A stretch of DNA of 64,000 nucleotides from contig NZ_JACIDZ010000007.1 in assembly GCF_014196625.1 (NCBI RefSeq), positions 124,001-188,000 on the forward strand, written 5' to 3'. This DNA is from Martelella radicis. Its GTDB lineage: Bacteria > Pseudomonadota > Alphaproteobacteria > Rhizobiales > Rhizobiaceae. The first letter of the stretch is position 1. Each line of letters starts with the position of its first letter. The notes under the pieces were generated by a model, which searched no databases, was not told where the DNA came from, and saw only the letters and a program-made list of their open reading frames with translations. The position numbers were made by a program, and so were the translations under genes. This document shows positions 4,532 to 20,472 of the stretch, piece by piece.

Positions 4532-4596
4532 CAAGTCGGGGTGGCAGAAGCCGGAACGAAACCGCAGGCTCTTTCTAAAATTTGTGTGAGGACATG

Positions 4597-6734: not shown

Positions 6735-7754
6735 TCAGCCCCTCTCGGGCAGAACGGGATCCCGCTTCAGGCCCGCGCGATCGACAGCCTGGATGAAGGC
6801 TTTCAGCCGATCCTTTCGGTAGGCGTCGACATCCATCTCGCCATAGTCGTAGAAGCCCTGGCCGGTTTTCATGCCAATCCGACCTTCTTCCATGTTGCGC
6901 TGAACGATCTCCGGCGCTTCGAAACGGTCGGTTTCAAGCGCGCCCTGCAGGTAGCGGCTGGCGTAATAGAGGATGTCGCCGCCGCCCCAGTCGACGAATT
7001 CCAGGAGGCCGAGCACGGCAAAGCGCAGGCCGAAACCGTACAGCACGGCCTTGTCCACATCCTCCGCGCTGGCGACGCCCTCTTCCACCAGCCGCGCCGC
7101 CTCGTTCATCGCCAGCGCCTGAATGCGCGGCACGATATAGCCGGGCGAGGCCCTGCAGACGACGGGCACCTTGCCGATGTCTTCGAGAAAGCGCTTCAGC
7201 GTTTGCGTCGTTTCCGGCGCGGTTTCATCGGCGGGCGAGAGCTCGATGAGGGGCACGAGAAAGGCGGGGTTCAGCCAGTGCGCGTTCAGGAAACGGGTCT
7301 TGTTCTCGGTCAGTGCGACGAGGTCGGATGAGAGCATTGTCGACGTGGTCGAGGCGAGGATCGCTCCGTTGCCGGCAAAGCGGTCGAACAGCGCGAAGGC
7401 CTGTTCCTTGGCCGCGCGCACTTCCGGCACGGCCTCGAACACGATCGAAGCCTCGCAAAGGGCTGCGCCGGCATCCTCAAGCGCCACCACGCTGATGCGC
7501 GCCATGATGGCGGGCACGGCGGTCTTGTCGAAGGCGCCAAGCTCGGCCATCAGCGTCAGATCGCGTTCGATCTCGGCAATGGCGCTTTCCTCGAGTTCCG
7601 CGAAGGCCTCGCCGGAGCGCGTCTTGGCATCGATGAGGCACACCCGGTGGCCATGATAGGCCACGCACTGGGCAATGCCCCGGCCCATCCGCCCTGCCCC
7701 GATGGAGGCCAATGTCATGGCTTGGGTCTTGGCTTGGGTCATGGGCTTCGTCAT
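6735..7754 (-). CDS. 3-hydroxyacyl-CoA dehydrogenase family protein
   Basis: NAD-dependent dehydrogenase of 339 residues or slightly fewer. The Rossmann motif is SIGAGRMGRGIA and the catalytic His is in NAHWLNP with a downstream Glu in LIELSP. The C-terminal 3HCDH domain ends in the typical MKTGQGFYDYG. Length fits single-function 3-hydroxyacyl-CoA or L-gulonate 3-dehydrogenases. The first residues (MTKPMTQAKTQAM) are a short repeat ahead of the conserved fold, so translation might start at the internal ATG at 7718. The first ATG overlaps the stop of the upstream opine-dehydrogenase-like gene (ATGA). It is the last gene of the long reverse operon beginning at 15290. It is not part of the standard iac set, and its substrate here is unknown. 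Confidence 0.87.
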   Translation of the reverse strand: MTKPMTQAKTQAMTLASIGAGRMGRGIAQCVAYHGHRVCLIDAKTRSGEAFAELEESAIAEIERDLTLMAELGAFDKTAVPAIMARISVVALEDAGAALCEASIVFEAVPEVRAAKEQAFALFDRFAGNGAILASTTSTMLSSDLVALTENKTRFLNAHWLNPAFLVPLIELSPADETAPETTQTLKRFLEDIGKVPVVCRASPGYIVPRIQALAMNEAARLVEEGVASAEDVDKAVLYGFGLRFAVLGLLEFVDWGGGDILYYASRYLQGALETDRFEAPEIVQRNMEEGRIGMKTGQGFYDYGEMDVDAYRKDRLKAFIQAVDRAGLKRDPVLPERG

Positions 7755-8830
7755 CAGATCCCGTCCTTCAGCATGGTCTGCACATCGCCCACGGTCATGC
7801 CCGCAAGGCCGAGCCGTTCAAATGTCCGGCCATCGGCGCGGAAATCGTCGCCGGCAACCGCGCCGGCAACCGACAGCAGCCCGGCCGCGACCGGGCACGG
7901 CACGCCCGCCCATTCGCCGACGGAAACCAGAAAGGCTAGACCGAGCCCGGTATCCTCGCGCATATAGCGGTGGGACTGAAGATCGAGGTGCTCATGCCAG
8001 TCGCCTGAGCCCACCAGCTTGTCATGGGCGAGATTGCCATACATCCAGTCGCTGGTCTCGTAATGATCGGCAAGCGGAAAATGCGGCGCGTCGTAGCCGA
8101 GCGCCTCGCGGATCGCGATACGCTCATTGTCGAGCGCGGTATGGACGCGGCGGATCGACGGCTGGGTACCCTCGTTGTGGATGTCCCACTGATCGAAATG
8201 CTCGATCGGCCCGGCATTCATCAGGATCAGCGGCGGATGGATGATCGGCCCGGCATTCATCAGCGCGCCGGAAAGCGCATCCTCGGACTTCTCGATGGCC
8301 CCGGGAAAGGCCGCGCCGATGACGGCGAGCGCACTCTCGGTGTTGCGCGCCGGGAAAACCCCGGTCGGCAGGCGCGAGGCGCGGGTGGTGATGCGCACCT
8401 CGGTTTCGCTCTGCTTGCGCGTCAGCCAGGGCAGCGTTCCGGTCTCGGCGATGGAGAAGTCGGCGGTGCAGCCCGCATCGCGCATGATCTTCGCCATGAT
8501 ATAGGAGCCGAACGTGCCCGGCGGCAGATAGATCACCTGCCCGTCGCGCATGTGCGGGGCAAGCCTTGCCGCCAGATCCTCCTGGGCATTGGCGGGCGTC
8601 GGCGAAACGATCAGCTCGGCGCCGTCGAGCGCGGCTTCCAGATCATCGGTCGGCGCAATCGCAACCGGGCGCGTGCCGTTGAAGTCGGTGACGGTAATGC
8701 CGCCGGCCTCGGTGATTTCAGCAAAGCGCGCGCGGTCGCGCCGCCACCAGCGCACATCATGCCCCGCCTCGACAAAATCAGCCACCGCGGCATATGAACC
8801 ATTGCCGCCGCCCAGAACCGTGATCTTCAT
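7754..8830 (-). CDS. Octopine/nopaline (opine) dehydrogenase family protein
   Basis: NAD(P)-dependent dehydrogenase of 358 residues. The N-terminal Rossmann motif is VLGGGNGSYAA. The C-terminal octopine-dehydrogenase-type helical domain contains IIHPPLI followed by MNAGPIEH (about residues 198-214). Family members make or break the C-N bond between an amino acid and a 2-oxo acid, but many bacterial members have unknown substrates. The gene lies 86 bases after the flavin reductase gene and overlaps the next gene by four bases, so it is co-transcribed with the IAA genes. One idea is that it acts on an amino-acid conjugate of IAA or on a downstream oxo-acid. Nothing in the sequence proves this. 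Confidence 0.85.
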   Translation of the reverse strand: MKITVLGGGNGSYAAVADFVEAGHDVRWWRRDRARFAEITEAGGITVTDFNGTRPVAIAPTDDLEAALDGAELIVSPTPANAQEDLAARLAPHMRDGQVIYLPPGTFGSYIMAKIMRDAGCTADFSIAETGTLPWLTRKQSETEVRITTRASRLPTGVFPARNTESALAVIGAAFPGAIEKSEDALSGALMNAGPIIHPPLILMNAGPIEHFDQWDIHNEGTQPSIRRVHTALDNERIAIREALGYDAPHFPLADHYETSDWMYGNLAHDKLVGSGDWHEHLDLQSHRYMREDTGLGLAFLVSVGEWAGVPCPVAAGLLSVAGAVAGDDFRADGRTFERLGLAGMTVGDVQTMLKDGI

Positions 8831-8916
8831 TTCGCATTGTTCCCTTGTTTTTGTTCAATAAAATCGCTGCACACCCGATCTCTCCGGCGGAAACGCAGTG
8901 TCCGCCGAAAGGCGAG

Positions 8917-9417
8917 CTAAACCTTCTCCGGCATGCGCGCCGTCAGCGGATGGAAGCGCCGGTCGAACCAGACAAGCGCCTCTGCCGGCTCTGCGCCCAG
9001 CCGGGTTGCCTCGACCTGGGCGTAAAACACCGAATGGGTGCCGATCACCTTGCGCTCCACGATCCTGCAGTCAAAGGCGACCACGGCGCTTTCCAGCACC
9101 GGCGCGCCGGTCGCAAGCCGGATCCAGGTGTCGCCAGAAAAACGGTCCTCGCTGCCCCGACTGGCAAAGGCGGTGGCCAGCGCCTCGTGGCGACCGGCCA
9201 GCACATTGACGCAGAGCTTGCCATTGGCGTTGAACCGGTCATGCGAACGGTTCTGCCGGTTGACGCAGACCAGAAGCGTCGGCGGCTGATCGGTGATCGA
9301 GCAGACGGCAGACGCCGTCATGCCGTGGCGACCTTCCGGCCCGTCGGTCGTGACCAGATTGACCGCGGCCCCAAGCCGGCTCATGCCCTCGCGGAAAATC
9401 GTCGCGGTGTCGTTCAT
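8917..9417 (-). CDS. iacG: Flavin reductase, IacG-like
   Basis: A 166-residue NAD(P)H:flavin oxidoreductase of the HpaC/FRP type that would supply reduced flavin to the monooxygenase IacA. The split-barrel flavin reductase fold is recognisable from the early GMTASAVCSI segment, the LLVCVNRQ strand, the LCVNVLAG motif and a C-terminal DRRFHPL. I chose the ATG at 9417 because AGGAGA lies 6 bases upstream; an in-frame ATG at 9432 would place the ribosome binding site inside the gene. The ferredoxin-reductase gene ends 15 bases before this start. The presence of both this protein and an acyl-CoA-dehydrogenase-like monooxygenase is the usual arrangement in iac clusters. Confidence 0.88.
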   Translation of the reverse strand: MNDTATIFREGMSRLGAAVNLVTTDGPEGRHGMTASAVCSITDQPPTLLVCVNRQNRSHDRFNANGKLCVNVLAGRHEALATAFASRGSEDRFSGDTWIRLATGAPVLESAVVAFDCRIVERKVIGTHSVFYAQVEATRLGAEPAEALVWFDRRFHPLTARMPEKV

Positions 9418-9432
9418 GGTGGTCTCCTTCAC

Positions 9433-10392
9433 TCAGATATCGAGGACCAGCTTCTTGCCCTTGGCGCGCGAGCAGCAGAGCGCCATCTCGAAATTCTCCG
9501 CCTTTTCCTCGTCCGTAAGGAATTTGTCGCGATGATCGGCTTCACCCTCAAGAATTTCGGTGATGCAGGTGCCGCAAATGCCCTCTTCGCATTTGACCTC
9601 GACATCAACGCCCGCGCTCTTCAGCGCCTTGGCGATGGTGTCGTCCGGCCCGACGGTGACGGTGACGCCGGAGGCGCGCGCCTCGACCTCGAAGCTTTCG
9701 CCGGAAACATCGACATCGACGGTGAAATATTCGCGATGAATGCTGTCGGCGGGAAAGCCGGCCTTTGCGGCAAGGCCGATGATCCAGTCCATGAAGCCTT
9801 CCGGGCCGCAGACATAAAGATGGGTGCCCGCCTCATAGGCCGGAAATTCCTCAGGCGACAGCGCCGTGCCGTCATCATCATGATGAAAGTGAACACGGCC
9901 GGCAAAGGCTGCCGTCTCGATCACATCGGCAAAGGCGGTTACGGATTTCGAGCGGGTGCAGTAATGGATCTCATATTCGCCACCCCTGGCCTCCAGGGCA
10001 TGCGCCATGGCGATCATCGGCGTGATGCCGATGCCGCCGCCGAAGAGGATCGAGCGCCTTGCGCCTTCTGCCAGCGGAAAGAGATTTGCCGGCGCATCCG
10101 CAACAAACACCGCACCGGGCCTTGCCTGCCTGTGAATGGCAGCCGACCCGCCCCGGCTTGCCGCATCCTTCAGAATGCCGAGCCGATAACAACCGGTCTC
10201 CGATGGCGAACCACAGAGCGAATACTGGCGATGAAACACCGTCTCGCCATCGCGAACCTCGATCGCAAGATGCGCTCCGGCCTCGAAGGACGGAAGCGGT
10301 TTGCCCTCGGCATCCTGCAGAACGAGCCGGATGATATCGCCCCGGTCATCGATCCGCTCGACGACCTTCAGGGAAAGCTTCTGGTCGGTCAT
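9433..10392 (-). CDS. iacF: Dioxygenase reductase, PDR/VanB type, IacF-like
   Basis: Electron-transfer protein of 319 residues that passes electrons from NAD(P)H to the Rieske oxygenase IacCD. Domain order is that of phthalate-dioxygenase-reductase proteins. The FMN/FAD-binding barrel has FHRQYSLCG near residue 55, the NAD-binding domain has FGGGIGITPM near 115, and a plant-type 2Fe-2S ferredoxin domain is at the C-terminus. Cluster cysteines are visible in CEEGICGTC and in the final LCCS. The gene lies between the SDR and the flavin reductase on the same strand, with gaps under 20 bases. Vanillate demethylase reductases look alike; the neighbours decide the name. Confidence 0.88.
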   Translation of the reverse strand: MTDQKLSLKVVERIDDRGDIIRLVLQDAEGKPLPSFEAGAHLAIEVRDGETVFHRQYSLCGSPSETGCYRLGILKDAASRGGSAAIHRQARPGAVFVADAPANLFPLAEGARRSILFGGGIGITPMIAMAHALEARGGEYEIHYCTRSKSVTAFADVIETAAFAGRVHFHHDDDGTALSPEEFPAYEAGTHLYVCGPEGFMDWIIGLAAKAGFPADSIHREYFTVDVDVSGESFEVEARASGVTVTVGPDDTIAKALKSAGVDVEVKCEEGICGTCITEILEGEADHRDKFLTDEEKAENFEMALCCSRAKGKKLVLDI

Positions 10393-10409
10393 GTTCCGTT
10401 CAATCCTTG

Positions 10410-11171
10410 TCAGCGGACATAGAGCCCGCCATTGACGTCCCAGCAGGCGCCGTTGACGAAGAAGGCCTTCGGCGAGGCCAGGAAGGCGGCCATCTCGCCG
10501 ATAAACTCCGCATCGCCAAGCTTGCCGACGGGAATGTTCTTCAGGAACCCGGCAAACGCTGCCTCCGGCACGATATCGCGCACCATCGGCGTATCCATCG
10601 GCCCGGGCGAAATCGCGTTGACTGTGACGCCGAAGGGGGCGAGATCACGGGCAAACACCTTGGTCAGCGTCAGGATCGCGCCCTTGGAGGCGGCATAATG
10701 CGCGCCCGTCGCCGTGCCGCCGTTCTGGCCCGCAAGCGAGGCCATGTTGACGATCCGGCCATAGCCGCGTTCCTTGAAATGCCGGCCAAAGATCTTGCAT
10801 CCGGTGAAGGTGCCGCCGGCATTGACGGCCATGATCGCGTTGAAGGTTTCGGTGTCGATATCGAGTACCGGCTCGGCACGGGTCACGGCGGCATTGTTGA
10901 CCAGAACCTCGACGCTGCCCCAGCGGGCAACGCATTTTTCCAGGACATGCTCGAAATCCTCCGGCCGCGCGATGTCGAGCTTGGCCGTCAGAGCCGTTTC
11001 GGAGGCAAGGTCCAGTTCCTCGGCCAGCGCATCGCAGGCCTTTTCGTCGATGTCGGCGAGGATCACCCGGTAGCCGGACGCATGCAGCGCGCGGGCAATG
11101 GCGGCGCCGACGCCGCGGGCGGCACCGGTGACGACGGCGGTCTGGGTCTCGATCGGAAGCGGCGCCGGCAT
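10410..11171 (-). CDS. iacE: Short-chain dehydrogenase/reductase, IacE-like
   Basis: NAD(P)-dependent SDR of 253 residues. The cofactor motif is TGAARGVGAAIA at the N-terminus, followed by NNAAV near residue 90. The catalytic Ser is in the MASLAG region and the Tyr-x3-Lys pair in YAASKG (about 152-157). The PGPMDTPM segment and C-terminal DVNGGLY are typical. In iac clusters IacE acts with IacA in converting IAA to an oxidised oxindole acetate. The start overlaps the stop of the dioxygenase beta gene (TGATG). The assignment to IacE rests on the cluster; by sequence alone it is a generic SDR. Confidence 0.85.
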   Translation of the reverse strand: MPAPLPIETQTAVVTGAARGVGAAIARALHASGYRVILADIDEKACDALAEELDLASETALTAKLDIARPEDFEHVLEKCVARWGSVEVLVNNAAVTRAEPVLDIDTETFNAIMAVNAGGTFTGCKIFGRHFKERGYGRIVNMASLAGQNGGTATGAHYAASKGAILTLTKVFARDLAPFGVTVNAISPGPMDTPMVRDIVPEAAFAGFLKNIPVGKLGDAEFIGEMAAFLASPKAFFVNGACWDVNGGLYVR

Positions 11172-11668
11172 CAGAACAGATAGCTGATCGACGTCAGCAC
11201 TCCCTCGGAATTGATCAGGCGAACGACCTTGTCGTGGATCAGCAACTGGCCGTCGCGGCGCACGAGGTGATGCTCGACATCGGCGAGAAACGTGCGCTGA
11301 CGACCGAACTTGTCCTCGGTCAGATGCATGGCGGAGCGCACCTTCAGCGAGCCCGGCAATGCCTCGGTGACGACGAAGCGCGACGAAAGCCGCACCGTGC
11401 GCGCGGCAGGCGTGGCCGAAATGGCGAAGCCGCCCTGCAGCCGCTCGACGCGCATTTTCCGCATCTTGGCATCATCGAAGACGATGTTGAGATTGTCGCG
11501 GAAATTCGTCGTGTCATGCTCGACCGGGATGACGTAGTGGCCATCCTCGGTCCAGAGCTTCAGCCAGGCCTCGTAGTCGGCGCGGTCGAGAATATCGGCC
11601 TCAAGCCAGATGAACTGCTGCGCTTCGGCAAGCGTGATCCCGGTTTCGGTGGTCATCGTATCGCTCAT
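11171..11668 (-). CDS. iacD: Aromatic-ring-hydroxylating dioxygenase beta subunit, IacD-like
   Basis: Small (beta) subunit of 165 residues with the NTF2-like cone fold of ring-hydroxylating dioxygenases. Family features are the EADILDRADYEAWLKLWTED region near the N-terminus, a central ERLQGG region and the C-terminal HDKVVRLINSEG. I place the start at 11668, where ATG overlaps the alpha-subunit stop (ATGA) behind AAGGAT; an in-frame ATG at 11689 lies inside the alpha gene. It has no redox centre and supports hexamer assembly. Coupled translation with the alpha subunit fits equal stoichiometry. Confidence 0.9.
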   Translation of the reverse strand: MSDTMTTETGITLAEAQQFIWLEADILDRADYEAWLKLWTEDGHYVIPVEHDTTNFRDNLNIVFDDAKMRKMRVERLQGGFAISATPAARTVRLSSRFVVTEALPGSLKVRSAMHLTEDKFGRQRTFLADVEHHLVRRDGQLLIHDKVVRLINSEGVLTSISYLF

Positions 11669-12933
11669 CGGCTCATCATCCTTTTCCACATGTTGTAGGC
11701 GGCGCGCATGCCGGTCTCGGAGCTCACGGTCCCGCGCGGCAGGCCGTTCGGCCCGTCCTTTTCCAGCCCCTTGTCGCGGTTGACCATGATGTCGAGTTCG
11801 GGACCGCCGGCGGTTCCGCGCTGGACGCGTTCCCAGACCTCGGCATCATCCGGGCTGCCGAAACCCATCGGCCCCTGGAAATGCTCATGCAAGCGAAGGC
11901 GCATGCGGTTGGCCTCCTCCGGCCCGCCATCCATGCCGATGGCGATGTGGCGGATATGGGTCTCGTCGACGGAGACCGGCCGCATGATACGGAAGAAGGA
12001 AAGCGAGCAGGCCGCATTGGGGAAAAGGTTGAGGTTGAAGCCCGTGCCGCCGACCGCCTTGACGATGCGGCGCACCTGCTCCTCGCTGTAGCGCTCACGC
12101 AGGCTTTCGGCGAGCTCGGCGAAGCGGGCGGGGATTTCCCAGCCATTGTCCTCGTCGAGATCGATCAGCGACGGCATCATCACCATCACCGAATGGCCAT
12201 TGCCGAGGTCTTCCACAAAACCATCGCCATCGAGGAAGGAGAACAGATCCTCCGTCTCGGAATCGAGCGACTGCAGGAAGGGCTTGTGCACCACCGGGAA
12301 GTGATAGGCGTCGGTGGTGTTTTCGAGCTGGATCTTCCAGTTGCCGGGAAACGAGAACTGGTGCTCGCCCAGAACCTTTACCGGAAAGCCGCCGCCCTGC
12401 TTCATGAACAGGTCGATCCACGGTTTGGCATTGCCGAGGAAGTCCTCGATCGGCTCGACCTCGTCATTGAGCGAGGCGAAGATCATGCCGTTATAGATGC
12501 CGACCTTGAGCTTCGGCAGGCCGAATTCCTTCTTGTCGAAGCTCTCGTGATAGCCCTCGGCATAGGGCAGGCCGCGCAGCGAGCCGTCGAGCGCATAACC
12601 CCAGCCGTGATAGGGGCACTGGAAGGAACTGGTCTTGCCCTTGTTGTGCTCGCACACGGTAGCGGCGCGGTGGCGGCAGCGGTTGATCAGGACATGAATC
12701 TCGTTCTTCCGGTCGCGCGAGATGATGACGGGCTGACGGCCGACCCATGAGCGCTTGAAACTGCCCTTTTCCGGCACTTCCGAGGTATGGCCGACCCACA
12801 CCCAGGTCTTGCCGAAAATCTCGTCCATCTCGACCTCGAAGAGGTCGGGGTCGGTGTACATCTGCGTTGCGACGCGATCGTCGCGCACAAGATCGGCATA
12901 GGCGGTCTTGGTCTTTTCTACTGCGACATCCAT
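11665..12933 (-). CDS. iacC: Rieske ring-hydroxylating dioxygenase alpha subunit, IacC-like
   Basis: Catalytic oxygenase subunit of 422 residues. The Rieske 2Fe-2S centre is bound by Cys86 and His88 (CRH) and Cys106 and His109 (CPYH). The mononuclear iron site is in the C-terminal domain around TTDAYHFPVVH. In IAA degradation, IacC with IacD and IacF attacks the oxidised indole ring on the route to catechol. I chose the ATG at 12933 because AGGAGA is 7 bases upstream; a much longer frame from 13080 adds a low-complexity basic stretch that does not look like protein. The gene lies 46 bases after iacA. Substrate specificity is inferred from the cluster. Confidence 0.92.
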   Translation of the reverse strand: MDVAVEKTKTAYADLVRDDRVATQMYTDPDLFEVEMDEIFGKTWVWVGHTSEVPEKGSFKRSWVGRQPVIISRDRKNEIHVLINRCRHRAATVCEHNKGKTSSFQCPYHGWGYALDGSLRGLPYAEGYHESFDKKEFGLPKLKVGIYNGMIFASLNDEVEPIEDFLGNAKPWIDLFMKQGGGFPVKVLGEHQFSFPGNWKIQLENTTDAYHFPVVHKPFLQSLDSETEDLFSFLDGDGFVEDLGNGHSVMVMMPSLIDLDEDNGWEIPARFAELAESLRERYSEEQVRRIVKAVGGTGFNLNLFPNAACSLSFFRIMRPVSVDETHIRHIAIGMDGGPEEANRMRLRLHEHFQGPMGFGSPDDAEVWERVQRGTAGGPELDIMVNRDKGLEKDGPNGLPRGTVSSETGMRAAYNMWKRMMSR

Positions 12934-12979
12934 CTTTCTGTCTCCTGTTACAAAAGGCTTCCGGCGGGCGGGGCGACGC

Positions 12980-14128
12980 TCACGGATAACCGGGCGGGGT
13001 CTGTTGCTCGAACATCGCAGCGCCCGCCGATGTCCATGTTCCAAGGCCGAGAAAGGCGTGCTGGGCAACGGCATTGGCATCGATCAGGCAACGGCCGAGA
13101 ACGTGACCGCGGGCCAGCGCCCGCGTGCCGGCCATGCGGAAGGCCATATGCGCGACGGCAGCCCCTTCGCTTGCGGCATGGCTTGCCGCCATGCGCAGTT
13201 CGATCACGCCCGCCTTATCGACGGCATCGCCGCTGACCACACTCTCCCAGGCCTTCTCGGTCGCTTCGTAGAAATAGGCGCGCGCGCTTTTCAGCCGTGC
13301 TTCCGCCTTGCCATATTCGGCCTGGATATAGGCGCGGGCGCCAAGCGTCGGCGCGCCTGTGATCGAGGGTGTTTCGAGCGCCTCGGCGCGGATCCAGTCG
13401 AGCGCCTCGCGCGCCGTGCCGAGGCCGACAACGGCCAGAACTTGCGCGGCGAGCGCCATGGGCGGATAGCGGAAGGCCGGTTCGTCGCGCTTGGCGGGCG
13501 AACCGCGCACGAAGGTCCATTCCTCCGGCACGATCACGTCCTCGGTGACGATGTCATGGCTGCCGGTCGCCGTCAGGCCGAGCGTATCCCAGCTATGCTT
13601 GATCGAAACGTCCTCGCGCTTCATCACCGCCATGCGCGGCAGGCCGCCCGTCCCCTTGTCGTCGACCTTGATGCCGGCGCCGATCAGGGACGCACCCATG
13701 CAGCCGGAACAGTAGGGCCAGCGGCCCTTGACGGAAAATCCGCCCGCCACGCGTTCGGCCGGCTGCGGCGGAAAGATCGCGCCGGCAAAGACGGTATCGG
13801 GATCCTTGCCATAGATCGCCGCGAAGGTTTCCGGCGGAAGCGCCGCAAGATAGGTCGACGACACGCCGAAGCTTGCCACCCAGCCGGTCGAGGCATCGGC
13901 GGTCGAGAGCGTCTCGATCAGTTCGAGAAAGGCGGCCGGCGTGACTTCATCGCCGCCGAGCGATTTCGGCACGAAAGCGCGATAGGCGCCGACAGCCTGC
14001 AGCTTCTCGACCATGTCGAGCGGCACATAGGTGAGCTTCTCGAATTCGGCGCGCCGCTCCCTGATCTCCTCGAGAACCGATGTGAGGGTCACCGCAGGCG
14101 CGGCGGCGACCTGGCTTCTAGTGTCCAT
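12980..14128 (-). CDS. iacA: Acyl-CoA-dehydrogenase-like flavin monooxygenase, IacA-like
   Basis: Flavin-dependent oxygenase of about 382 residues with the acyl-CoA dehydrogenase fold (group D monooxygenases such as HsaA). It has the N-terminal helical domain, a beta domain with GRWPYCSGC and TGSHDIVTEDV (about residues 145-210), and a C-terminal four-helix bundle. IacA carries out the first oxidation of IAA and needs reduced flavin from IacG. I use the ATG at 14128 with GGAG 9 bases upstream; a TTG six codons earlier is less likely. The start overlaps the end of the amidase gene by 11 bases. A true acyl-CoA dehydrogenase is less likely because the cluster supplies a flavin reductase and oxygenase genes. 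Confidence 0.87.
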   Translation of the reverse strand: MDTRSQVAAAPAVTLTSVLEEIRERRAEFEKLTYVPLDMVEKLQAVGAYRAFVPKSLGGDEVTPAAFLELIETLSTADASTGWVASFGVSSTYLAALPPETFAAIYGKDPDTVFAGAIFPPQPAERVAGGFSVKGRWPYCSGCMGASLIGAGIKVDDKGTGGLPRMAVMKREDVSIKHSWDTLGLTATGSHDIVTEDVIVPEEWTFVRGSPAKRDEPAFRYPPMALAAQVLAVVGLGTAREALDWIRAEALETPSITGAPTLGARAYIQAEYGKAEARLKSARAYFYEATEKAWESVVSGDAVDKAGVIELRMAASHAASEGAAVAHMAFRMAGTRALARGHVLGRCLIDANAVAQHAFLGLGTWTSAGAAMFEQQTPPGYP

Positions 14129-15290
14129 TGCGTTTGTCTCCGGCAAATGCTTCGGGATTGATGTCGATTGTGGCTGCTAGGCCCTCGGCGATGGCGCAGA
14201 GCGCCTCATCCCCGCCGATCCGGCCAACAAGCTGGATGCCCGCAGGCAGGCCGTCTTCCGTGAGAATGGGAATGGTGATCGCCGGGTGGCCGCTCAGGTT
14301 GAAGGGCCGCACCAGCGCGGTCAGCGGAATGAGCGCCCGCATGTCGCCGGCATCGGCGAGAAGCGGCGGCACGACAGGCATGGTCGGCAGAACCAGGGCG
14401 TCGCAGTCTTCCAGTGCGCGGTCGACCTCGCTCCGGAACATTCGGCGGATCTCTTCCGCGCGGCTGATGTCGGCACCCAACCGGCCGGCCTCCGCGGCAA
14501 GAATGCGCGCGCGCACCGTTTCGTCCATGCCGTTGTCTTCATGTGCGAGCGCGGCAAAGGCGTCCGCCGCCTCGGCATTGATGATGACAAGGCCGGCCTC
14601 GTAGGCCGCTTCGAAATACTCAAGCGTGATTTCCGCAGCGCGGACACAGGCAAGCGCCTTGTCGAAGGCCGCGACGATCTCCGCTTCGGCGGAAACCACG
14701 ACCCGACCAAGGCGGAATTCGGTGGCGGGCGGACACGCGACAAAACCCGGGTCCATCAGACTCATGGCCTTTGTCAGCATTTCGGTCGTGGCGGCAAAGG
14801 GACCAATGCAATCCAGCGAACTTTCCGCCGGAATGGCGCCGGCGCGGGAGATGCGGCCATAGGTCGGCTTCATGCCGAAAACGCCGCAACAGCAGGCCGG
14901 CATGCGCACCGAGCCGCCCGTATCCGTGCCCACCGCGAAGTCGCAGCGCCCGGCCGCCATCAGAGCCGCCGAGCCCGAAGACGACCCCCCGGGGATCCTG
15001 TCCGGCCATTTGGCGTTGATAGGGGTGCCGAGAAAGGCGTTGACGCCGGTGACGCCGAAGGCCAGCTCGTGCATGTTTGCCGTGCCGATGATGTGGCAGC
15101 CCCTGGCGAGAAGGGCACCGACCACGGCGGCGTTCTCATCTGCGACGGGGCCTTCCGCAAGGGCGCGCGACCCGCAGCGGGTAACGATCCCCTTGATCGC
15201 CAGGCATTCCTTGATCGCCACCTGCGGGCCATCGCCGCCCATAGAGAGAGGGCGCGACAACGCGGCATCGGCCGGTTGAGCTGAATGCAT
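14118..15290 (-). CDS. iacH: Amidase, IacH-like
   Basis: Amidase-signature hydrolase of 390 residues. The Ser-cisSer-Lys triad is visible: Lys in AIKECLAIKG near residue 27, and the serines in the GGSSSGSAA / TDTGGSVRMP region (about 100-130). It is somewhat shorter than many amidases (450-500 residues) but the core is intact. IacH is a standard member of IAA-degradation clusters and is thought to hydrolyse an amide-type intermediate formed after ring oxidation. This is the first gene of the reverse operon. The ATG has AGGA 5 bases upstream, and a good sigma70-type promoter ends about 60 bases before it. Confidence 0.88.
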   Translation of the reverse strand: MHSAQPADAALSRPLSMGGDGPQVAIKECLAIKGIVTRCGSRALAEGPVADENAAVVGALLARGCHIIGTANMHELAFGVTGVNAFLGTPINAKWPDRIPGGSSSGSAALMAAGRCDFAVGTDTGGSVRMPACCCGVFGMKPTYGRISRAGAIPAESSLDCIGPFAATTEMLTKAMSLMDPGFVACPPATEFRLGRVVVSAEAEIVAAFDKALACVRAAEITLEYFEAAYEAGLVIINAEAADAFAALAHEDNGMDETVRARILAAEAGRLGADISRAEEIRRMFRSEVDRALEDCDALVLPTMPVVPPLLADAGDMRALIPLTALVRPFNLSGHPAITIPILTEDGLPAGIQLVGRIGGDEALCAIAEGLAATIDINPEAFAGDKRNGH

Positions 15291-15349
15291 CTTATTCCTG
15301 TTCCCTTGTCGCGAACCGGGCCTTCGGCTTTTTCTTGTCGTTCGCTATT

Positions 15350-15384
15350 ACAGTAATATTACCGTTATTTTTCACATAAGTCAA
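15350..15384 (-). promoter_or_regulatory. Promoter of the iacH operon with a palindrome over the -10
   Basis: On the reverse strand TTGACT (15384-15379) is followed after exactly 17 bases by TAATAT (15361-15356), a good sigma70-type promoter. The 16-bp near-palindrome ACAGTAATATTACCGT at 15350-15365 (one mismatched pair) covers the -10 element. That is the right place for a repressor of the MarR type, such as the IacR-like protein encoded at 19343-19795. The expected transcript start is about 60 bases ahead of iacH. Confidence 0.7.
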
Positions 15385-15440
15385 GAATGAACCCGTTGCT
15401 TTCGTTTTTTTCCTGGGCAGACTTCCCGGTAGCTCACGCC

Positions 15441-16730
15441 CTACATCGAGTAAGGCACCAGCAGAACGAGCGCGGGAAAGGCGATGAGCAGCAGCACCCT
15501 GATGACATCCATCAGCAGAAACGGACCCAGCCCGCGGAAGATCGTCGCCAGATTGACGTCGCGCACCACGGCCCGGAGCACAAAGGCATTCAGCCCGACC
15601 GGCGGCGTGATGTAGCTGATCTCGGTGACGACGACGACGAAGATGCCGAACCAGATCAGATCGATCCCGTTGGCCGCGACGACGGGATAGAACATCGGCA
15701 CGGTCAGCGTGATCATCGCCATGCCTTCCAGCAGGCAGCCAAGCACCAGATAGATCGCCATGATCACCAGCAGGATGCTGATTCTCGAATCGCCGAAGAC
15801 CGTCAGCAGCGACTGGATATCGGCCGACATACCCGAGAGATTGACGTAATTGGTGAAGGTCAGCGCACCGAACAGGATGAAGAACATCATCGCGCTGGTC
15901 TTCGCGCTTTCAAACAGCGACATCAGCACGGACTGGACGGAGAACCGCCGTTTGGCCAGGACCAGAAGAAAGGCGCCAAAGGCCCCCATGGCCGCGCTTT
16001 CGGTCGGGGTGAAGACGCCGAAATAGATACCGCCCATGACGAAGATGAACAGCGCGCCCGCGCCGAACGTGCCCTTCATCGCCGCAAACCGTTTTGCAAG
16101 CGGCAGACGATCCATCACGGGAAGCTTCTGGCCCGAGATCATCAGCGACAGCACCACCGCAAGACAGTAGCCGATGATGCCGATAATGCCGGGCACGATC
16201 CCCGCAAGGAACAATTTGCCGATATCGCTCTGCGTCATGATGCCATAGAGCACCAGGATGATCGACGGCGGGATCAGGATGCCGAGCGTGCCGCCGGCGG
16301 CGATCGATGCGGTCGACAGCGCATCAGGATAGCCGAAGCGGCGCATCGACGGCATGGAGATTTTCGCCATGGTGGCAGCGGTTGCCAGCGAGGAACCGCA
16401 GACGGAGGAGAAGCCGCCGCTCGCCACAACGGTGGCGATCGCAAGCCCGCCGCGACGATGCCGCATCCAGGCATGGGCAGCCTCGTACATTTCCTGGGCC
16501 ACGCCGGACAGCACCACGAAATTGCCCATCATCAGGAACAGCGGCACGATCGAAAGCGAATAGCTCAGCGAATTATCAAAGAAGGTCTGGCCAAGCAGCG
16601 ACAATGCCGGCTGCCAGCCGATGATCGAGAGGGTTCCGACAAAGCCGACCAGCGTCAGCGAGAAGGCGATCGGCAGCCCCGAAAGCAGCATCACGAGTAG
16701 GATGAAGACGCCAACAGGCCAGCTTATCAT
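15441..16730 (-). CDS. dctM: TRAP transporter large permease subunit (DctM type)
   Basis: Inner-membrane transport subunit of a tripartite ATP-independent periplasmic transporter, 429 residues, about 12 membrane segments. Family hallmarks include the N-terminal hydrophobic ILLVMLLSGLPIAF region, the GGTLGILIPPS motif (about residue 150) and the C-terminal YITPPVGLNAFV. It moves an organic anion with sodium. The ATG overlaps the small-subunit stop by four bases. The operon lies directly upstream of the iac operon on the same strand, so the likely cargo is IAA or a related aromatic acid. This is an inference from position. Confidence 0.95.
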   Translation of the reverse strand: MISWPVGVFILLVMLLSGLPIAFSLTLVGFVGTLSIIGWQPALSLLGQTFFDNSLSYSLSIVPLFLMMGNFVVLSGVAQEMYEAAHAWMRHRRGGLAIATVVASGGFSSVCGSSLATAATMAKISMPSMRRFGYPDALSTASIAAGGTLGILIPPSIILVLYGIMTQSDIGKLFLAGIVPGIIGIIGYCLAVVLSLMISGQKLPVMDRLPLAKRFAAMKGTFGAGALFIFVMGGIYFGVFTPTESAAMGAFGAFLLVLAKRRFSVQSVLMSLFESAKTSAMMFFILFGALTFTNYVNLSGMSADIQSLLTVFGDSRISILLVIMAIYLVLGCLLEGMAMITLTVPMFYPVVAANGIDLIWFGIFVVVVTEISYITPPVGLNAFVLRAVVRDVNLATIFRGLGPFLLMDVIRVLLLIAFPALVLLVPYSM

Positions 16731-17242
16731 AATCCCGCCTCTCCGGTCTTGTCATCGCCGCCGGTAATGCCGTTGACGACTGTGATCACGGCGGAGACCG
16801 CGACGGCGACTGAGGTCAGATAGGCAAGCGGGGCAACCGGGATCTTCAGGGTATTGGTGCTCTGGGCATAGCCTGCCAGATTGCCGGCATGACCCCACAG
16901 CCGCCAGGCGATGAGCCCGAGCACAATCGCGGAGACCAGGCTTACGGCGATCTTGCGCAGCGGCTCCAACGCAGGCGGCACGCGGGAGAGCAGGATGTCG
17001 ACGCGGATATGGGCGTCATCCAGACAGACTGCGGGCAGACCCAGGAAGATGACGGCGCACAGCAACAGTTCCGTCAGTTCCGTCGCGCCCATCAGCGGCG
17101 CATTCAGAACGTAGCGGCCGATCACGTCGACAACGGTAATCATCATGATCGTGACCAGTAGCAGCGCGCAGACGACCGCCAGCGAGAGGCGCGCGTATTG
17201 GCGCGCGCCCGGTTTTCCATGACTTTCGACGGCCCGGTTCAT
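16727..17242 (-). CDS. dctQ: TRAP transporter small permease subunit (DctQ type)
   Basis: The 171-residue small membrane subunit with four predicted helices, the usual DctQ size. The segment GATELTELLLCAVIFLGLPA and the following DAHIRVDILL are typical of the family. It overlaps its neighbours on both sides (16727-16730 with dctM; base 17242 with the dctP stop), so the three subunits are translationally coupled. It holds the large subunit and the binding protein together. Confidence 0.93.
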   Translation of the reverse strand: MNRAVESHGKPGARQYARLSLAVVCALLLVTIMMITVVDVIGRYVLNAPLMGATELTELLLCAVIFLGLPAVCLDDAHIRVDILLSRVPPALEPLRKIAVSLVSAIVLGLIAWRLWGHAGNLAGYAQSTNTLKIPVAPLAYLTSVAVAVSAVITVVNGITGGDDKTGEAGL

Positions 17243-18270
17243 TATTTGGCCGCTGCTGCGATCTCGGCCTGCATCTCGGCATAGGCCGCCTTGGCGTCAA
17301 TGCCGGTCGCCTCAGAAATATCGGCGAGCTTCTTCTCGATCAGCGGATCAAGCCGGGAATGGAGGAACTCCATCTGCTCGGGCGTTGCCGCGCTGACGTC
17401 GATCTTGCCCTTCATCGCCTCGCGGGCCTGATCGTCGACGCGCTCCCACATCTCGCCGGCGCGCGTGACCAGGTGCTCACCGGTGACGCTTTCGATCGCG
17501 GCCTGATCCTTAGGCGAAAGACGATCCCACTTTGCCTTGTTCATGACGATGAACATCGAGGTGCTGTAAAGGCCGCCGGGAACGGTCATGCCCTTGTGCA
17601 TCAGCGGCATGAGACCGAAGGACTCGACCGATTCAAACGGGAAGAACAGGCCGTCGGCAACGCCCTGGGACAGGAGTTCGTAGGCCTTGGAGGCCGGACC
17701 CTCGATCGGAACCCCGCCAACCGCGACGGCGACATCATGCGCCATGCCGCCGCCGACGCGGATCTTCATGCCGTCGAAAGCGTCGCTCGCCGTCAGCGGC
17801 TTTTCCTTGGAGAAGGCTTCGCCCGGACCGTGGGTGAAGACGGCCAGAACCTTGACCCGGTCATACTCGTTCGCCTTGCTCAGCGTATCGTTGAAGACCT
17901 TCCAATAGGCCAGCGAACGGGCCACCGTGTCATCGCCGAGAAACGGCATCTCGGCAAGTTCGGAGGTGCGGAACCGGCCTGCAGTATAGTTCTGGACGCC
18001 CATGACGATGTCGGCAACGCCGTTTGCGGCAAGGTCATAATGCGCGCCGGGCGGCCCGAGCGGCGCCGGCAGAACCTTGACCGTGACATCGCCGTCCGTG
18101 GCGGTTTCGATCTCCTTGACCATCGGCATCAGCACGTCGCTGACCAGCGGATGCGCCGGCGGCAGCCAGACCGACATGGTCAGCGTCTCGGCGGCAAGGG
18201 CTGAGGACCCGGCCAGCGCCACGGCCGCGACCACGGCCCCACGACAGAATTTCAAAAGCGTTTTCACCAT
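17242..18270 (-). CDS. dctP: TRAP transporter substrate-binding protein (DctP type)
   Basis: Periplasmic solute-binding protein of about 342 residues. A signal peptide with basic start, hydrophobic core and ALAAE cleavage region covers about residues 1-26. The mature part has the DctP fold: WLPPAHPLVSD near the N-terminus, the GMKIRVGGG segment (about residue 160) that carries the carboxylate-binding Arg, and a C-terminal helix. I place the start at the ATG at 18270, preceded by AAGGGG; further in-frame starts upstream to 18300 would lengthen the signal peptide unusually. The binding-site Arg fits an acidic substrate such as IAA. The gene is first in the dctP-dctQ-dctM operon. Confidence 0.93.
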   Translation of the reverse strand: MVKTLLKFCRGAVVAAVALAGSSALAAETLTMSVWLPPAHPLVSDVLMPMVKEIETATDGDVTVKVLPAPLGPPGAHYDLAANGVADIVMGVQNYTAGRFRTSELAEMPFLGDDTVARSLAYWKVFNDTLSKANEYDRVKVLAVFTHGPGEAFSKEKPLTASDAFDGMKIRVGGGMAHDVAVAVGGVPIEGPASKAYELLSQGVADGLFFPFESVESFGLMPLMHKGMTVPGGLYSTSMFIVMNKAKWDRLSPKDQAAIESVTGEHLVTRAGEMWERVDDQAREAMKGKIDVSAATPEQMEFLHSRLDPLIEKKLADISEATGIDAKAAYAEMQAEIAAAAK

Positions 18271-18686
18271 CATTCCCCTTCTCGTTGTCACGATCGTCAT
18301 TTATTTCTTCGTCCGCCCGGCGAACCGGACGCATTTCAAGAGCGAAACCTGGTTCATCCGCTCTCATTCGGGCACAGCTTCACCGTCCCGCCCCAGCAAT
18401 GCTGTGGTCGGTGAGGCCGGATCAGGTCTCCGGATCTTTCATCTGCGACTGTCTGTTGCGGACGTCTTTCGGCAAGAGCGGCCGAAGTCAGCGCGCATTG
18501 CCGGACAAGGCTCACTTGTTCGCATCTGCGAAGACGCAAGCCATCCTTATCCGCAAGCGGCGCCTGCGTCCGCTCCGGTGCCGTCATCCGGCCCTGTCGC
18601 TCAATGTCTGGAAGTGACGTCTCTCACGCCGGGAGGCAATTCCTTCTGCTGTTGCGATGCTGTTCCCGTGTTTTTGATTTAGATGA

Positions 18687-18714
18687 AAATTACCGTAAAA
18701 TTGTAGGTTGTCAA
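18687..18714 (-). promoter_or_regulatory. Candidate promoter of the dctPQM operon, sharing the iacH motif
   Basis: On the reverse strand a perfect TTGACA (18714-18709) is followed after 16 bases by TAATTT (18692-18687). The octamer ACGGTAAT (18696-18689) lies at the same offset from the -10 as the identical octamer in the iacH promoter. On the opposite strand TTGATT (18674-18679) and TAAAAT (18696-18701) with 16 bases between them could serve the forward iacB-like gene. Orientation is therefore not certain. Confidence 0.5.
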
Positions 18715-18757
18715 CTCTGCCAATGCAAGCATTCCGGCTTTCGTCTCAAATTTATGA

Positions 18758-18779
18758 TATTTTTCACTTTATTTTTCAC
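18758..18779. repeat. Tandem TATTTTTCAC decamers shared with the iacH promoter
   Basis: TATTTTTCAC occurs at 18758-18767 and again at 18770-18779, a 12-base period, and a third exact copy is inside the iacH promoter at 15366-15375. It could be a regulator half-site, or chance in AT-rich DNA. Confidence 0.4.
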
Positions 18780-18919
18780 CTTTTTTCAGCCACCTTTCAC
18801 AGACGAACCGGCCATCAGCGACGTCGCGAGCAGCCTCGAAAGGGCTTTCGAAAGAGGCTCTCAGGCCTTCGCGCGCCACGGTCGAAGGCCGTTCGGATCA
18901 ACAGAAATGGGGAACTGAA

Positions 18920-19279
18920 ATGAGTGAACAAAAGCCACTGAGAACGTTGTTCTGCATTGCAGTGCATCAAAACTTTTTCGACCTGCCGTTCAGCGATATC
19001 GGCCTGGTCTGGAAGGGGTTTTCGGCGTTCCTGCGCGGCGTCGCCGATCTTCCCGGCGTCACCGTGCTCGGCACGATGGATGACGACGAAACCATGGTCG
19101 GCACTTCGCCGGACGGCTTTCCGTGGACCTGCTATATCCTCGCCGACTGCCCGGATCGCGACAGCGTCAAGGCCGCCTGCAACCTGTTCCGCACGATCGA
19201 GGTCGGCGAGTACCGGTTGTGGCGCTACATGCGCATCGAGGCCCGGATGGGGCGCGCGCTGGAAATTCCCGCGCTTTGA
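18920..19279 (+). CDS. iacB: Small conserved protein, IacB-like
   Basis: A 119-residue soluble protein with no signal peptide or membrane segment. Features I can see are an N-terminal strand RTLFCIAVHQNFFDLP, a central DDETMVGTSPDG segment, WTCYILADC, and a C-terminal arginine-rich RLWRYMRIEARMG helix. The alternating strand and helix pattern suggests a ferredoxin-like (ABM-type) fold. The size and position next to iacR, iacI and the iac operon match IacB, whose biochemical role is poorly defined. The ATG follows GGGGAA by 5 bases. It is convergent with iacR. The name depends on context and recollection of the family, so confidence is moderate. Confidence 0.65.
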   Translation: MSEQKPLRTLFCIAVHQNFFDLPFSDIGLVWKGFSAFLRGVADLPGVTVLGTMDDDETMVGTSPDGFPWTCYILADCPDRDSVKAACNLFRTIEVGEYRLWRYMRIEARMGRALEIPAL

Positions 19280-19303
19280 CGAAAAGCCAGAAGCATTCCG
19301 GCC

Positions 19304-19323
19304 GGCTTGTCATTTGACAAGCC
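19304..19323. terminator. Stem-loop between convergent iacB-like and iacR genes
   Basis: GGCTTGTCA at 19304-19312 is the reverse complement of TGACAAGCC at 19315-19323. Its place between two convergent stops fits a shared terminator, although there is no strong T-tract. Confidence 0.45.
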
Positions 19324-19342
19324 CGCTGGAGCGCCGCGCGAC

Positions 19343-19795
19343 TCAGGCAAGACGCTCGAAAATCTCTTCAAGAACCTGATTGACGCGGCGAAGGTCGTCC
19401 TCGCTGATATCCGTGAAGGTTCTTTCAAACACGCGGCTTGCCGTCTTCGCGGCCTTCAACCCGGCCTCGGCCCCGGCTTCCGTCAGGCTGACCTCGGTCA
19501 CCCGGGCATCGCTGGGGGAGACGCGGGTCTTGACCAGACCCTCGGCGGCCATGCGCTGGACGATCTTGGTCGTCGTGTTGAGCTTGAGGATGCAGAATTC
19601 AGCGATCTCCGAAACGCTGAGGTTTCCATGCTCGCGCAACGAGGACAGGACGCGCCAGCGCGAGACATCGAGCCCCTGCTGCTTCAGCAGGCGGTCCATT
19701 TCGAACGTGTAGCGCGCGCTGACACGGGTAATCCAGTAAAACGGCCATTCCGCCTTCGATTGGAATGGAAGTGTCGGCTTATCTGAGTTTTCCAT
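19343..19795 (-). CDS. iacR: MarR-family regulator, IacR-like
   Basis: DNA-binding regulator of 150 residues, the normal MarR size. The winged-helix region runs from about residue 45 to 110: LREHGNLSVSEIAEFC, then TTTKIVQRMAAEGLV as recognition helix, and the wing around SPSDARVTEVSLTEAG. Helices at both ends form the dimer. MarR proteins in IAA clusters bind IAA and release DNA, which would induce the operon. The gene is divergent from iacI, with about 110 bases between the starts, and convergent with the iacB-like gene. Likely operators are the palindromes at 15350-15365 and 19842-19855. Confidence 0.88.
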   Translation of the reverse strand: MENSDKPTLPFQSKAEWPFYWITRVSARYTFEMDRLLKQQGLDVSRWRVLSSLREHGNLSVSEIAEFCILKLNTTTKIVQRMAAEGLVKTRVSPSDARVTEVSLTEAGAEAGLKAAKTASRVFERTFTDISEDDLRRVNQVLEEIFERLA

Positions 19796-19841
19796 CTGGC
19801 TATCTTCAGTCAGTTGAGCGCTGCGGATCGGGAGGTTCGCA

Positions 19842-19855
19842 CTGCATAATTGCAG
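19842..19855. promoter_or_regulatory. Palindrome in the iacR-iacI intergenic region
   Basis: CTGCATAATTGCAG has 5-bp arms around TAAT and includes CATAAT, a possible forward -10 for iacI. It could be an IacR operator. The evidence is position and symmetry only. Confidence 0.4.
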
Positions 19856-19905
19856 CGGTGGCAGAAGGCAAACAGCTTATGAACGGAAATGACAGGAAAG
19901 CAACG

Positions 19906-20472
19906 ATGAACACCCCGACGGATGCGGACAGGCTGGCCCTGCTGACGGCCCGCGTCGAAAGGCTGGAGGCGGAGGCCGAAATCCGCCGGCTGCAGGCCCG
20001 CTACATGTTTCTGTGCGACACGCCCTGCCCTGATTATGCCGTCGCAAACGACGCCCAACGCATCGACGCCATCCTCGCGCTTTACGCCGAAGATGCGATC
20101 TGGGAGGGCGTCGGTGAATATTATGACGGCCAGTTCGGCCGCTGTACCGGAAAGGCCGAAATCCGCGCCCATTTCGAAAAGTTCTGGAGCCCGGAGCGCG
20201 AGCCGAAACTGGTGCTGAATGTCCACTATCTGACATCGGAGCAGATCCATGTGGACGGCGACTGTGCCGAAGGCCAGTGGGTGCACTGCCAGCCATGGCT
20301 CTATGCCGACGGCACGGCGCTCCTGCGCTCCAGCCGGCTGAACAACGCCTTCGTCAGGATCGATGGCGCGTGGAAGATCAGCCGGACCCGCACCGAAAAC
20401 GTGTTCATTACTCCGCTCAGAGACAATTTCGCCAGCGACTACCCGCGACATTCGGTGTTGATGCGACCCTAG
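19906..20472 (+). CDS. iacI: SnoaL/NTF2-like protein, IacI-like
   Basis: A 188-residue protein. A short coiled N-terminal helix (about residues 1-30, LTARVERLEAEAEIRRLQ) leads into an NTF2-like fold recognised by the RYMFLCDT start, AILALYAEDAIWEG, the GKAEIRAHF segment and a C-terminal WKISRTRTENVF. I chose the ATG at 19906 with AGGAAA 6 bases upstream; in-frame ATGs at 19765 and 19879 are less well supported. NTF2-like proteins of this type are common helper enzymes (isomerases, hydratases) in aromatic degradation. The assignment to IacI rests on its position beside iacR and on fold. Confidence 0.72.
   Translation: MNTPTDADRLALLTARVERLEAEAEIRRLQARYMFLCDTPCPDYAVANDAQRIDAILALYAEDAIWEGVGEYYDGQFGRCTGKAEIRAHFEKFWSPEREPKLVLNVHYLTSEQIHVDGDCAEGQWVHCQPWLYADGTALLRSSRLNNAFVRIDGAWKISRTRTENVFITPLRDNFASDYPRHSVLMRP

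Follow-up and report, generated by a model that had tools for sequence, protein, structure and literature searches.

Probable indole-3-acetate catabolic locus of Martelella radicis with linked TRAP importer genes

Uptake of the auxin indole-3-acetate (IAA) by the bacteria that consume it is poorly known, and a run of genes in Martelella radicis raises the question of whether a pathway for IAA degradation can come with an importer of its own. The run lies at positions 6735-20472 of a 64-kb stretch of contig NZ_JACIDZ010000007.1 (‘the window’ being that whole stretch) and was characterized from the list of its open reading frames (ORFs) together with family scans. From sequence alone it had been read as iacA-I plus iacR, with the neighboring dctPQM genes, for a tripartite ATP-independent periplasmic (TRAP) transporter, as the uptake system. 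The analysis described here favors, with good though not full confidence, an intact iac-type catabolic locus that has its own TRAP importer and would be induced by IAA through IacR. The core pathway is known; the importer, an added enzyme pair and the layout are what is unusual.

Identity and layout of the locus

Each gene named in the sequence-only reading is present as an open ORF of matching family, but that inventory overlooked two genes at one end of the run (6735-8830), one of the octopine/nopaline dehydrogenase family (ODH) and one of the 3-hydroxyacyl-CoA dehydrogenase family (HCDH). All ten Iac proteins match, one to one, a single Acinetobacter baumannii iac locus (in a strain other than the characterized one, and with the gene order H-A-B-I-C-D-E-F-G), a correspondence that excludes a chance match. 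The identities range from 29% (IacG) and 30% (IacR) to 63% (IacC), and the iac markers iacA, iacB and iacI are all there (values in Table 1). IacC and IacD, encoded side by side, are of the Iac kind, with 57-81% and 42-81% identity, respectively, to the 16 loci having them, and just 27 and 28% to the Rieske subunits of an iad-like locus of Paracoccus saliphilus. IacI is 57 and 68% identical to its Sagittula and Gemmobacter counterparts. As to the MarR-family regulator, its best PDB match, 7KUA, is the IacR of Pseudomonas putida 1290, and the next two, 7L19 and 7L1I, are among the codes of a paper in which IAA-binding IacR structures were solved for P. putida, E. soli and A. baumannii (PMC9613470). 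These two are presumably the E. soli and A. baumannii structures, and a tyrosine conserved in the aligned RYT segment would, from chain numbering, be Tyr44 of that work.

The motifs of the Rieske alpha subunit (CxH-x17-CxxH and DxxHxxxxH), of the amidase (Lys segment, GGSSSGSAA and GTDTGGS) and of the short-chain dehydrogenase/reductase (SDR) IacE (YxxxK) are intact, and contain what we take to be the catalytic residues. The acyl-CoA-dehydrogenase-like monooxygenase, IacA, is HsaA-like in NCBIfam but scores below the cut-off of that model, the SnoaL-fold protein, IacI, matches the SnoaL_4 family, and the 119-residue IacB gave no match in the family scans. On this sequence evidence the window holds intact counterparts of iacA-I plus iacR, and the gene set first proposed held up gene by gene, both through the A. 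baumannii matches and through the IacR structures. (A predicted model of IacB, with a mean predicted local distance difference test score (pLDDT) of 83.5, has a ferredoxin-like fold. Deriving a function from it was set aside, with no PDB match at E 0.001 and TM near 0.5 being too weak; SnoaB, a cofactor-independent oxygenase, and YgiN were among the weak fold matches and were not used.)

The TRAP genes (dctP-dctQ-dctM), iacH-iacA-iacC-iacD-iacE-iacF-iacG and ODH-HCDH follow each other in one direction on the minus strand, with iacB, iacR and iacI placed beyond dctP (Table 1). From iacH through HCDH the gaps run from -29 to +86 bases, the 86 being between iacG and ODH, and 150 bases separate dctM from iacH. 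Of alternative starts, 12933 is the likelier for iacC, whose ORF itself extends to 13080, and 18273, the same as in Martelella lutilitoris, for dctP (ORF from 18300). For iacI 19906 is likelier (ORF from 19765), giving 188 residues as against 187 and 188 in annotated orthologues.

Table 1. Features of the iac locus, in window coordinates (aa, amino acids; identities are to the A. baumannii counterpart unless stated)
Feature	Position	Strand	Details
HCDH, 3-hydroxyacyl-CoA-dehydrogenase family	6735..7754	-	last gene of the operon; NCBIfam PRK08269 467.3 bits (cut-off 427); PF02737/PF00725
ODH, octopine/nopaline-dehydrogenase family	7754..8830	-	PF02317 99.7 bits (cut-off 30); 1-base overlap with HCDH
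iacG, flavin reductase, 171 aa	8917..9432	-	PF01613; 49% to Klebsiella plasmid counterpart
iacF, phthalate dioxygenase reductase (PDR)-type reductase with 2Fe-2S domain (Fer2), 319 aa	9433..10392	-	PF00111; 44%
iacE, SDR, 253 aa	10410..11171	-	PF13561; YxxxK motif; 51%
iacD, Rieske oxygenase beta subunit	11171..11689	-	PF00866; 42%
iacC, Rieske oxygenase alpha subunit	11665..12933	-	PF00355/PF00848; motifs intact; 63%
iacA, flavin-dependent indole-3-acetate monooxygenase	12980..14146	-	PF08028; 46%; tree
iacH, amidase-signature enzyme, 390 aa	14118..15290	-	PF01425 243.4 bits; motifs; 47%
Candidate IacR operator TTACAGTAA	15348..15356		57 bases upstream of iacH start
dctM, TRAP large permease	15441..16730	-	TIGR00786 294.5 bits, over cut-off
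dctQ, TRAP small permease	16727..17242	-	PF04290
dctP, TRAP solute-binding protein	17242..18273	-	PF03480; best solved relatives bind aromatic acids
Candidate IacR operator TTACCGTAA	18690..18698		between divergent dctP and iacB; ~220 bases before iacB, at least 390 before dctP
iacB, 119 aa	18920..19279	+	54%; 52% to Klebsiella 114-aa protein annotated IacB
iacR, MarR-family regulator	19343..19795	-	best PDB matches 7KUA (3e-35), 7L19, 7L1I
iacI, SnoaL-fold protein, 188 aa	19906..20472	+	PF13577; 33%

Within the genus the distribution is patchy. IacA has a relative at E 1e-40 or better in five of 13 genomes, and a near-identical locus is in M. lutilitoris only (G004, NZ_VCLB01000003), where the ORF caller scored 13 of the 15 genes, with proteins that are 94-100% identical. 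The two genes that flank the run (window 4582-6705 and 21523-22908) sit on separate contigs in M. lutilitoris and more than 2 Mb apart in three other genomes (G002, G005 and G010, the last being Martelella sp. AD-3, NZ_CP014276), so that the site of the locus is also a point of rearrangement. ‘Island’, as the locus had been called, is a fair label from this patchiness and from the separation of the flanks elsewhere. GC content was dropped as a mark of horizontal transfer, being the same (0.626) as in the remainder of the window (0.623).

The TRAP importer genes and a candidate operator

That dctPQM encode the auxin importer is probable from the relatives and the linkage of DctP. Its best PDB sequence matches are 4p56 (1e-75), TarP_Sse (1.5e-38) and 5i5p (6.9e-33), and ranking by fold with an AlphaFold2 model (mean pLDDT 82.8) is similar, 4p56 being followed by TarP proteins. 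By both rankings the predicted protein belongs with the aromatic-acid group of solute-binding proteins (SBPs). Related TarP proteins and marine SBPs have been solved with coumarate, ferulate, caffeate, cinnamate and 4-hydroxyphenylacetate, and the title given to the 5iga/5izz set of relatives includes ‘specific for aromatic acid ligands’. We take 4p56 to hold mandelate, and the more distant 4pgn/4pgp to hold indole pyruvate and indole acetate. Indole acids are listed among TRAP SBP ligands in a review (PMC5812351).

For linkage, 19 loci that have iacA together with iacC or iacF were assessed, the window included; they were drawn by similarity to the window and are no census. Ten of them have a related TRAP system: the window, M. 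lutilitoris (L016), Martelella AD-3 (L014), Breoghania (L021), Roseobacter (L022), Sulfitobacter (L025), Amphritea (L030, in whose stretch identity is good for iacR, H, A, F and TRAP only), a Methylocystaceae metagenome-assembled genome (L032), Sagittula (L063) and Thioclava (L064). In the iac loci of eight other lineages DctP identity is 39-66%. A less biased view comes from a plasmid collection, in which 235 of 72,556 records have a DctP match; the best five of the 30 matches listed (58.8, 58.4, 54.4, 54.1 and 43.8%) are at four iac loci and one iad-like locus. In 11 of 385 alphaproteobacteria drawn evenly DctP has a relative at E 1e-60 or better, and identity of 50% or more is confined to the two copies in M. 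radicis itself. In three of eight stretches around more distant DctP relatives an acyl-CoA ligase (by eye) is next to the TRAP genes, which would suit an aromatic-acid importer. Several of the TRAP-bearing iac hosts, which include Martelella, Breoghania, several Rhodobacterales and Amphritea, appear from genus or record to be marine or saline; TRAP systems are sodium-coupled, as this one would be if it resembles the others, with which such hosts would fit, and the arrangement is perhaps suited to salt-rich settings. The contention that other IAA clusters more often carry a transporter of the major facilitator superfamily (MFS) agrees with several cases: one is annotated beside iac in Klebsiella and Acinetobacter SH20PTE14, is seen by eye in A. 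baumannii, and accompanies the iac cluster of P. putida 1290 (PMC6624763).

Several observations weigh on the other side. Nine of the 19 iac loci are without such a TRAP system (L027, L029, L031, L056, L057, L058, L065, L085 and L086, with L029 ending at a contig edge), so TRAP is dispensable for the pathway. The second DctP copy of the genome (55%) is elsewhere and has no iac genes. The TarP-like family binds many aromatic acids, and with binding that broad IAA is not singled out by sequence. Support for the original proposal of TRAP as uptake system comes from the SBP relatives, the linkage in other lineages and the shared direction with the iac genes, the candidate operator described next being of less help. 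(The second dctPQM set, G000:C2:266145-267143, L089, has a DctP of 54-55% and a DctM of 69% identity, and no nameable catabolic neighbors.)

The palindrome TTACNGTAA is present twice in the 64 kb, at 15348 and 18690, where shuffling gives an expectation of 0.06. As it was discovered in the window, it was tested in other loci, 27 in number (the window, L010 and L016 being left out), with the promoter zone defined as 300 bases upstream to 30 inside of the starts of iacH, iacA, iacB, dctP or marR. Nine of 11 occurrences, in seven loci, are inside that zone, whereas 47 control palindromes, built from the same letters and with gaps of 0-3, reached three at most and averaged 0.26. The nine sites precede iacH in L014, L025 (twice), L063, L064 and L065, and are between iacB and iacA in L018 and L019 (twice). 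The motif may accordingly be said to mark iac promoters in seven relatives, and is a candidate IacR operator. Its absence from 19 of the 27 loci counts against a general role, and implies that it serves part of the family only. As to the importer, none of the nine promoter-zone sites outside the window's own lineage is before dctP, and the window's site is ~390 bases from the dctP start, so that the evidence for importer control is weak.

Gene content, motifs, orthology, linkage and motif distribution together suggest the following mechanism, whose chemical steps and end product are taken from the literature on other strains. DctP would capture periplasmic IAA, and DctQM would import it. IacA, supplied with reduced flavin by IacG, and IacE would then yield 3-hydroxy-2-oxindole-3-acetate, from which IacC/D with the reductase IacF, plus IacH, IacI and IacB, would give catechol and ammonia. 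Without IAA, IacR would occupy the two TTACNGTAA sites, one upstream of iacH and the other in the dctP-iacB interval, and its release could co-induce importer and pathway. A TRAP system tied to iac is a testable importer, the candidate IacR site permits a direct test of co-induction, and the periplasmic DctP could become part of an auxin sensor.

Ring cleavage and the appended dehydrogenase pair

No catechol ring-cleavage gene is in the window, as had been stated, genome searches with PF00775 and TIGR03211 giving no match there. The genome does encode a catechol 2,3-dioxygenase (404.8 bits, cut-off 320.2), next to which are 2-hydroxymuconic semialdehyde dehydrogenase, acylating acetaldehyde dehydrogenase and 4-hydroxy-2-oxovalerate aldolase genes, all over cut-off, and this operon would complete degradation of the ring. 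Its position on another contig (C4) than the iac locus is a point against this reading. Two more relatives of the dioxygenase in the genome are below cut-off. A genome search for the intradiol, catechol 1,2-, enzyme had also been called for; it gave two adjacent PF00775 matches which, from size and adjacency, look like the subunits of protocatechuate 3,4-dioxygenase. As these are the only PF00775 matches, intradiol cleavage (catA) is an unlikely route.

The two genes that end the run are harder to place. ODH is over the PF02317 cut-off for the opine dehydrogenase family, and its H198 and D293, presumably the catalytic His-Asp pair of that family, are invariant in 18 of 18 sequences. In the even draw of 385 alphaproteobacteria, ODH (E 1e-60) occurs in 14 genomes and IacA (E 1e-90) in three; by ORF calls ODH and HCDH are adjacent in 12 of the 14 (exceptions G077 and G094). 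In none of the 13 other ODH genomes is ODH beside iac (stretches of 6.6-19.9 kb), which tells against a role in the pathway, and ODH as an iac-specific enzyme was rejected on that ground. On plasmids, 11 ODH matches at 56-68% stand apart, the next being at 33% (among the 40 listed of 247 matching records). Four of these 11 are within about 13 kb of iacC (Burkholderia multivorans, B. cenocepacia, B. arboris and Acinetobacter SH20PTE14), one is beside an iad-like locus, and six are unlinked, three by reading of the region and three by listed coordinates alone. Breoghania, Rhizobium RU36D and Martelella, the last in two kinds of locus, also have the pair linked to iac. A quick tree of 25 rows (last 368 residues, without L010 and the broken Breoghania pieces, and with L079 and L080 flagged) calls for no fewer than three changes of the iac label and two of the mini-iac label (reduced loci, dealt with below). 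It gives no support to a single origin of iac-linked ODH, although three changes may also represent one gain and two losses.

We read this as a general ODH-HCDH pair, often TRAP-linked, that would have been recruited repeatedly into auxin loci. It would be an NAD(P)-dependent oxidoreductase pair, most likely acting on a neighboring carboxylic acid, such as an aryl-lactate or some other indole acid with a modified side chain, or on a by-product. The best guesses for substrate are an indole-3-lactate-like aryl hydroxy acid or the C4 remainder of auxin. Set against recruitment is the possibility that ODH and HCDH are chance neighbors with no part in auxin use, which retains a sizeable minority of the probability: the 13 genomes just mentioned would be expected from it, as would the scatter of iac-linked ODHs over the tree rather than in one clade. 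What speaks for recruitment is that linkage to iacA recurs, in two Martelella locus kinds, Breoghania, Rhizobium RU36D, Acinetobacter and Burkholderia, despite the scarcity of both genes in the even draw, and that ODH-HCDH terminates the same tight gene run in the window.

A rival view concerns what the importer carries. TRAP might bring in another aromatic or indole acid (candidates are indole-3-lactate, indole-3-propionate, arylacetates and mandelate-type hydroxy acids), to be used by ODH/HCDH and then Iac, with IAA entering by diffusion or by another carrier. The promiscuity of TarP-type proteins, indicated by the title of PMC3610893 and by the ligands of solved structures, is in keeping with this, as are the acceptance of indole-3-propionate and -butyrate by IacA/IacE (PMC7225977) and the occurrence of the ODH pair beside several kinds of TRAP genes. 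It is nonetheless thought unlikely: related DctPs are with iac loci that have no ODH/HCDH (L014, L022, L025, L030, L032, L063 and L064), which makes the Iac pathway the common factor, and regulators of the IacR group bind IAA (PMC9613470).

An arylmalonate-decarboxylase context for TRAP was dropped, octopine and hydroxybutyryl-CoA genes going unmentioned in the available part of PMC4996985. In a literature search with subscription journals mostly uncovered, none of the papers listed connected TRAP transport with iac or gave an IacR operator, and no paper brought together three of the four subjects octopine, 3-hydroxybutyryl-CoA dehydrogenase, TRAP transporter and auxin. Two other arrangements may be mentioned. 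In Thioclava (L064:10336-12118) a 2-dehydropantoate-2-reductase-like dehydrogenase and a class II aldolase are beside iac genes, and this reductase-aldolase pair, also in Marinomonas (PMC11373566), is perhaps an analogue of ODH-HCDH. The iad-like locus on the P. saliphilus plasmid (L059) has several TRAP systems, among them a relative of the iac type (DctP 43%) and another that adjoins ODH-HCDH.

Reduced relatives and known systems

The most unusual lead is not the window itself, but the reduced loci, termed mini-iac, among its relatives. Nine of 34 contig loci with IacA have iacC or iacF. Eight are of MarR-A-B-E-G type without C, D, F, H and I (in L026 the MarR match is just 27%), and 17, all Bradyrhizobium (L033-L049), have an IacA relative (49-51%) alone in the stretch, as judged by ORF scan without a tblastn recheck. 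Gene presence or absence was rechecked by tblastn in 28 loci, L033-L049 not being among them; ORFs were chosen mechanically, so some starts and genes are unsure, and several Breoghania (L021) genes are in pieces that were left unmended. Two further Martelella genomes have A, E, flavin reductase, MarR, TRAP and ODH-HCDH in a locus without IacB or Rieske genes. In all, ten loci are Rieske-less (L017-L020, L023, L024, L026, L028, L011 and L013). None of their genomes has an IacC orthologue elsewhere, six giving no match at E 1e-30 and four partial matches at 31-36%, where positive controls for the same search gave 68 and 76%. The presence of IacB in eight of the ten hints at a part for it in the IacA/IacE stage, for which it is, however, dispensable in Escherichia coli (PMC7225977).

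In a quick IacA tree of 34 rows (last 395 residues; three of the 17 Bradyrhizobium loci, and without L010, which is the L016 locus, and a 696-aa L057 ORF), mini and full types are interleaved: the window shares a group with M. lutilitoris and Breoghania (99), which three mini loci join next (96). Long rows were flagged for Klebsiella, Acidocella and Breoghania. Near mini-iac genes are acyl-CoA ligases (L011, L026 and L017, the last with a thiolase-like gene as well), a cupin protein that is gentisate-dioxygenase-like by eye (L028:1656-2780), fumarylacetoacetate (FAA) hydrolases (L020:2568-3479 and L023:6659-8374) and a vicinal oxygen chelate (VOC) protein. The cupin, FAA hydrolases and VOC protein are a possible alternative ring-cleavage set, and the mini-iac loci of other Rhizobiales possibly represent a pathway of a third kind, for auxin or for indole acids. 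Loci lacking both iacC and iacD would escape surveys anchored on the adjacent pair, as in PMC9613470, which may therefore understate how wide the range of auxin degraders is.

From such relatives a broader scheme can tentatively be drawn, and as a whole it is rather doubtful. Auxin catabolism would be modular, with an IacR-A-B-E-G core that makes 3-hydroxy-2-oxindole-acetate, interchangeable importers (TRAP, MFS or ATP-binding cassette (ABC) type), a recruited ODH-HCDH pair through which further indole acids, hydroxy- or conjugated, would enter the core, and interchangeable downstream ends. The mini-iac ends would be Rieske-free and so far undescribed, some near an acyl-CoA ligase and some near a cupin/FAA-hydrolase gene, and the window version would have core, Rieske end, TRAP and ODH-HCDH together.

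Among known systems, Variovorax iad also has MarR-controlled auxin degradation and a dedicated SBP, IadK2, but this is of ABC type, unlike the TRAP DctP; the iad route leads via isatin to anthranilate, and iacA, iacB and iacI are not iad markers (PMC9613470, PMC10374108). That the window has an iad-type locus instead is highly improbable: Rieske and MarR genes are common to both types, but the three genes that PMC9613470 gives as iac markers (iacA, iacB and iacI) are present, the MarR protein groups with IacR structures, and no iorB/iotA markers or indolepyruvate oxidoreductase were seen among the ORFs of 1-24000, in a list that was inspected with no model search run.

For single components, DctP is like the TarPQM aromatic-acid TRAP system in having 4p56 and then TarP as nearest by fold and sequence, and differs in that its genes are linked to auxin genes, the ligand being a prediction. 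The nearest solved relative of ODH, by a profile of 18 relatives, is N-(1-D-carboxylethyl)-L-norvaline dehydrogenase (CENDH, 1bg6; 2.9e-52), from which it differs in that its gene is usually paired with HCDH and its substrate is a prediction.

Among iac systems, Marinomonas, a marine bacterium, likewise has binding-protein importer genes between iacR and iacA, though of branched-chain ABC type, unlike the window's TRAP; its extras are a class II aldolase and a 2-dehydropantoate 2-reductase, as against ODH/HCDH, and its IacH has 429 residues (PMC11373566), the 390 of the window being close to the 374 in P. putida. The iac clusters of P. putida 1290, A. baumannii and Paraburkholderia phytofirmans share with the window the complete iacA-I plus iacR set, and that of A. 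baumannii also the order H-A-C-D-E-F-G, with iacB and iacI excepted. The window differs from these three in having iacB and iacI on the opposite strand and past the TRAP genes, an importer of TRAP type in place of MFS, an appended ODH and HCDH, and catechol genes that are non-adjacent and of meta type.

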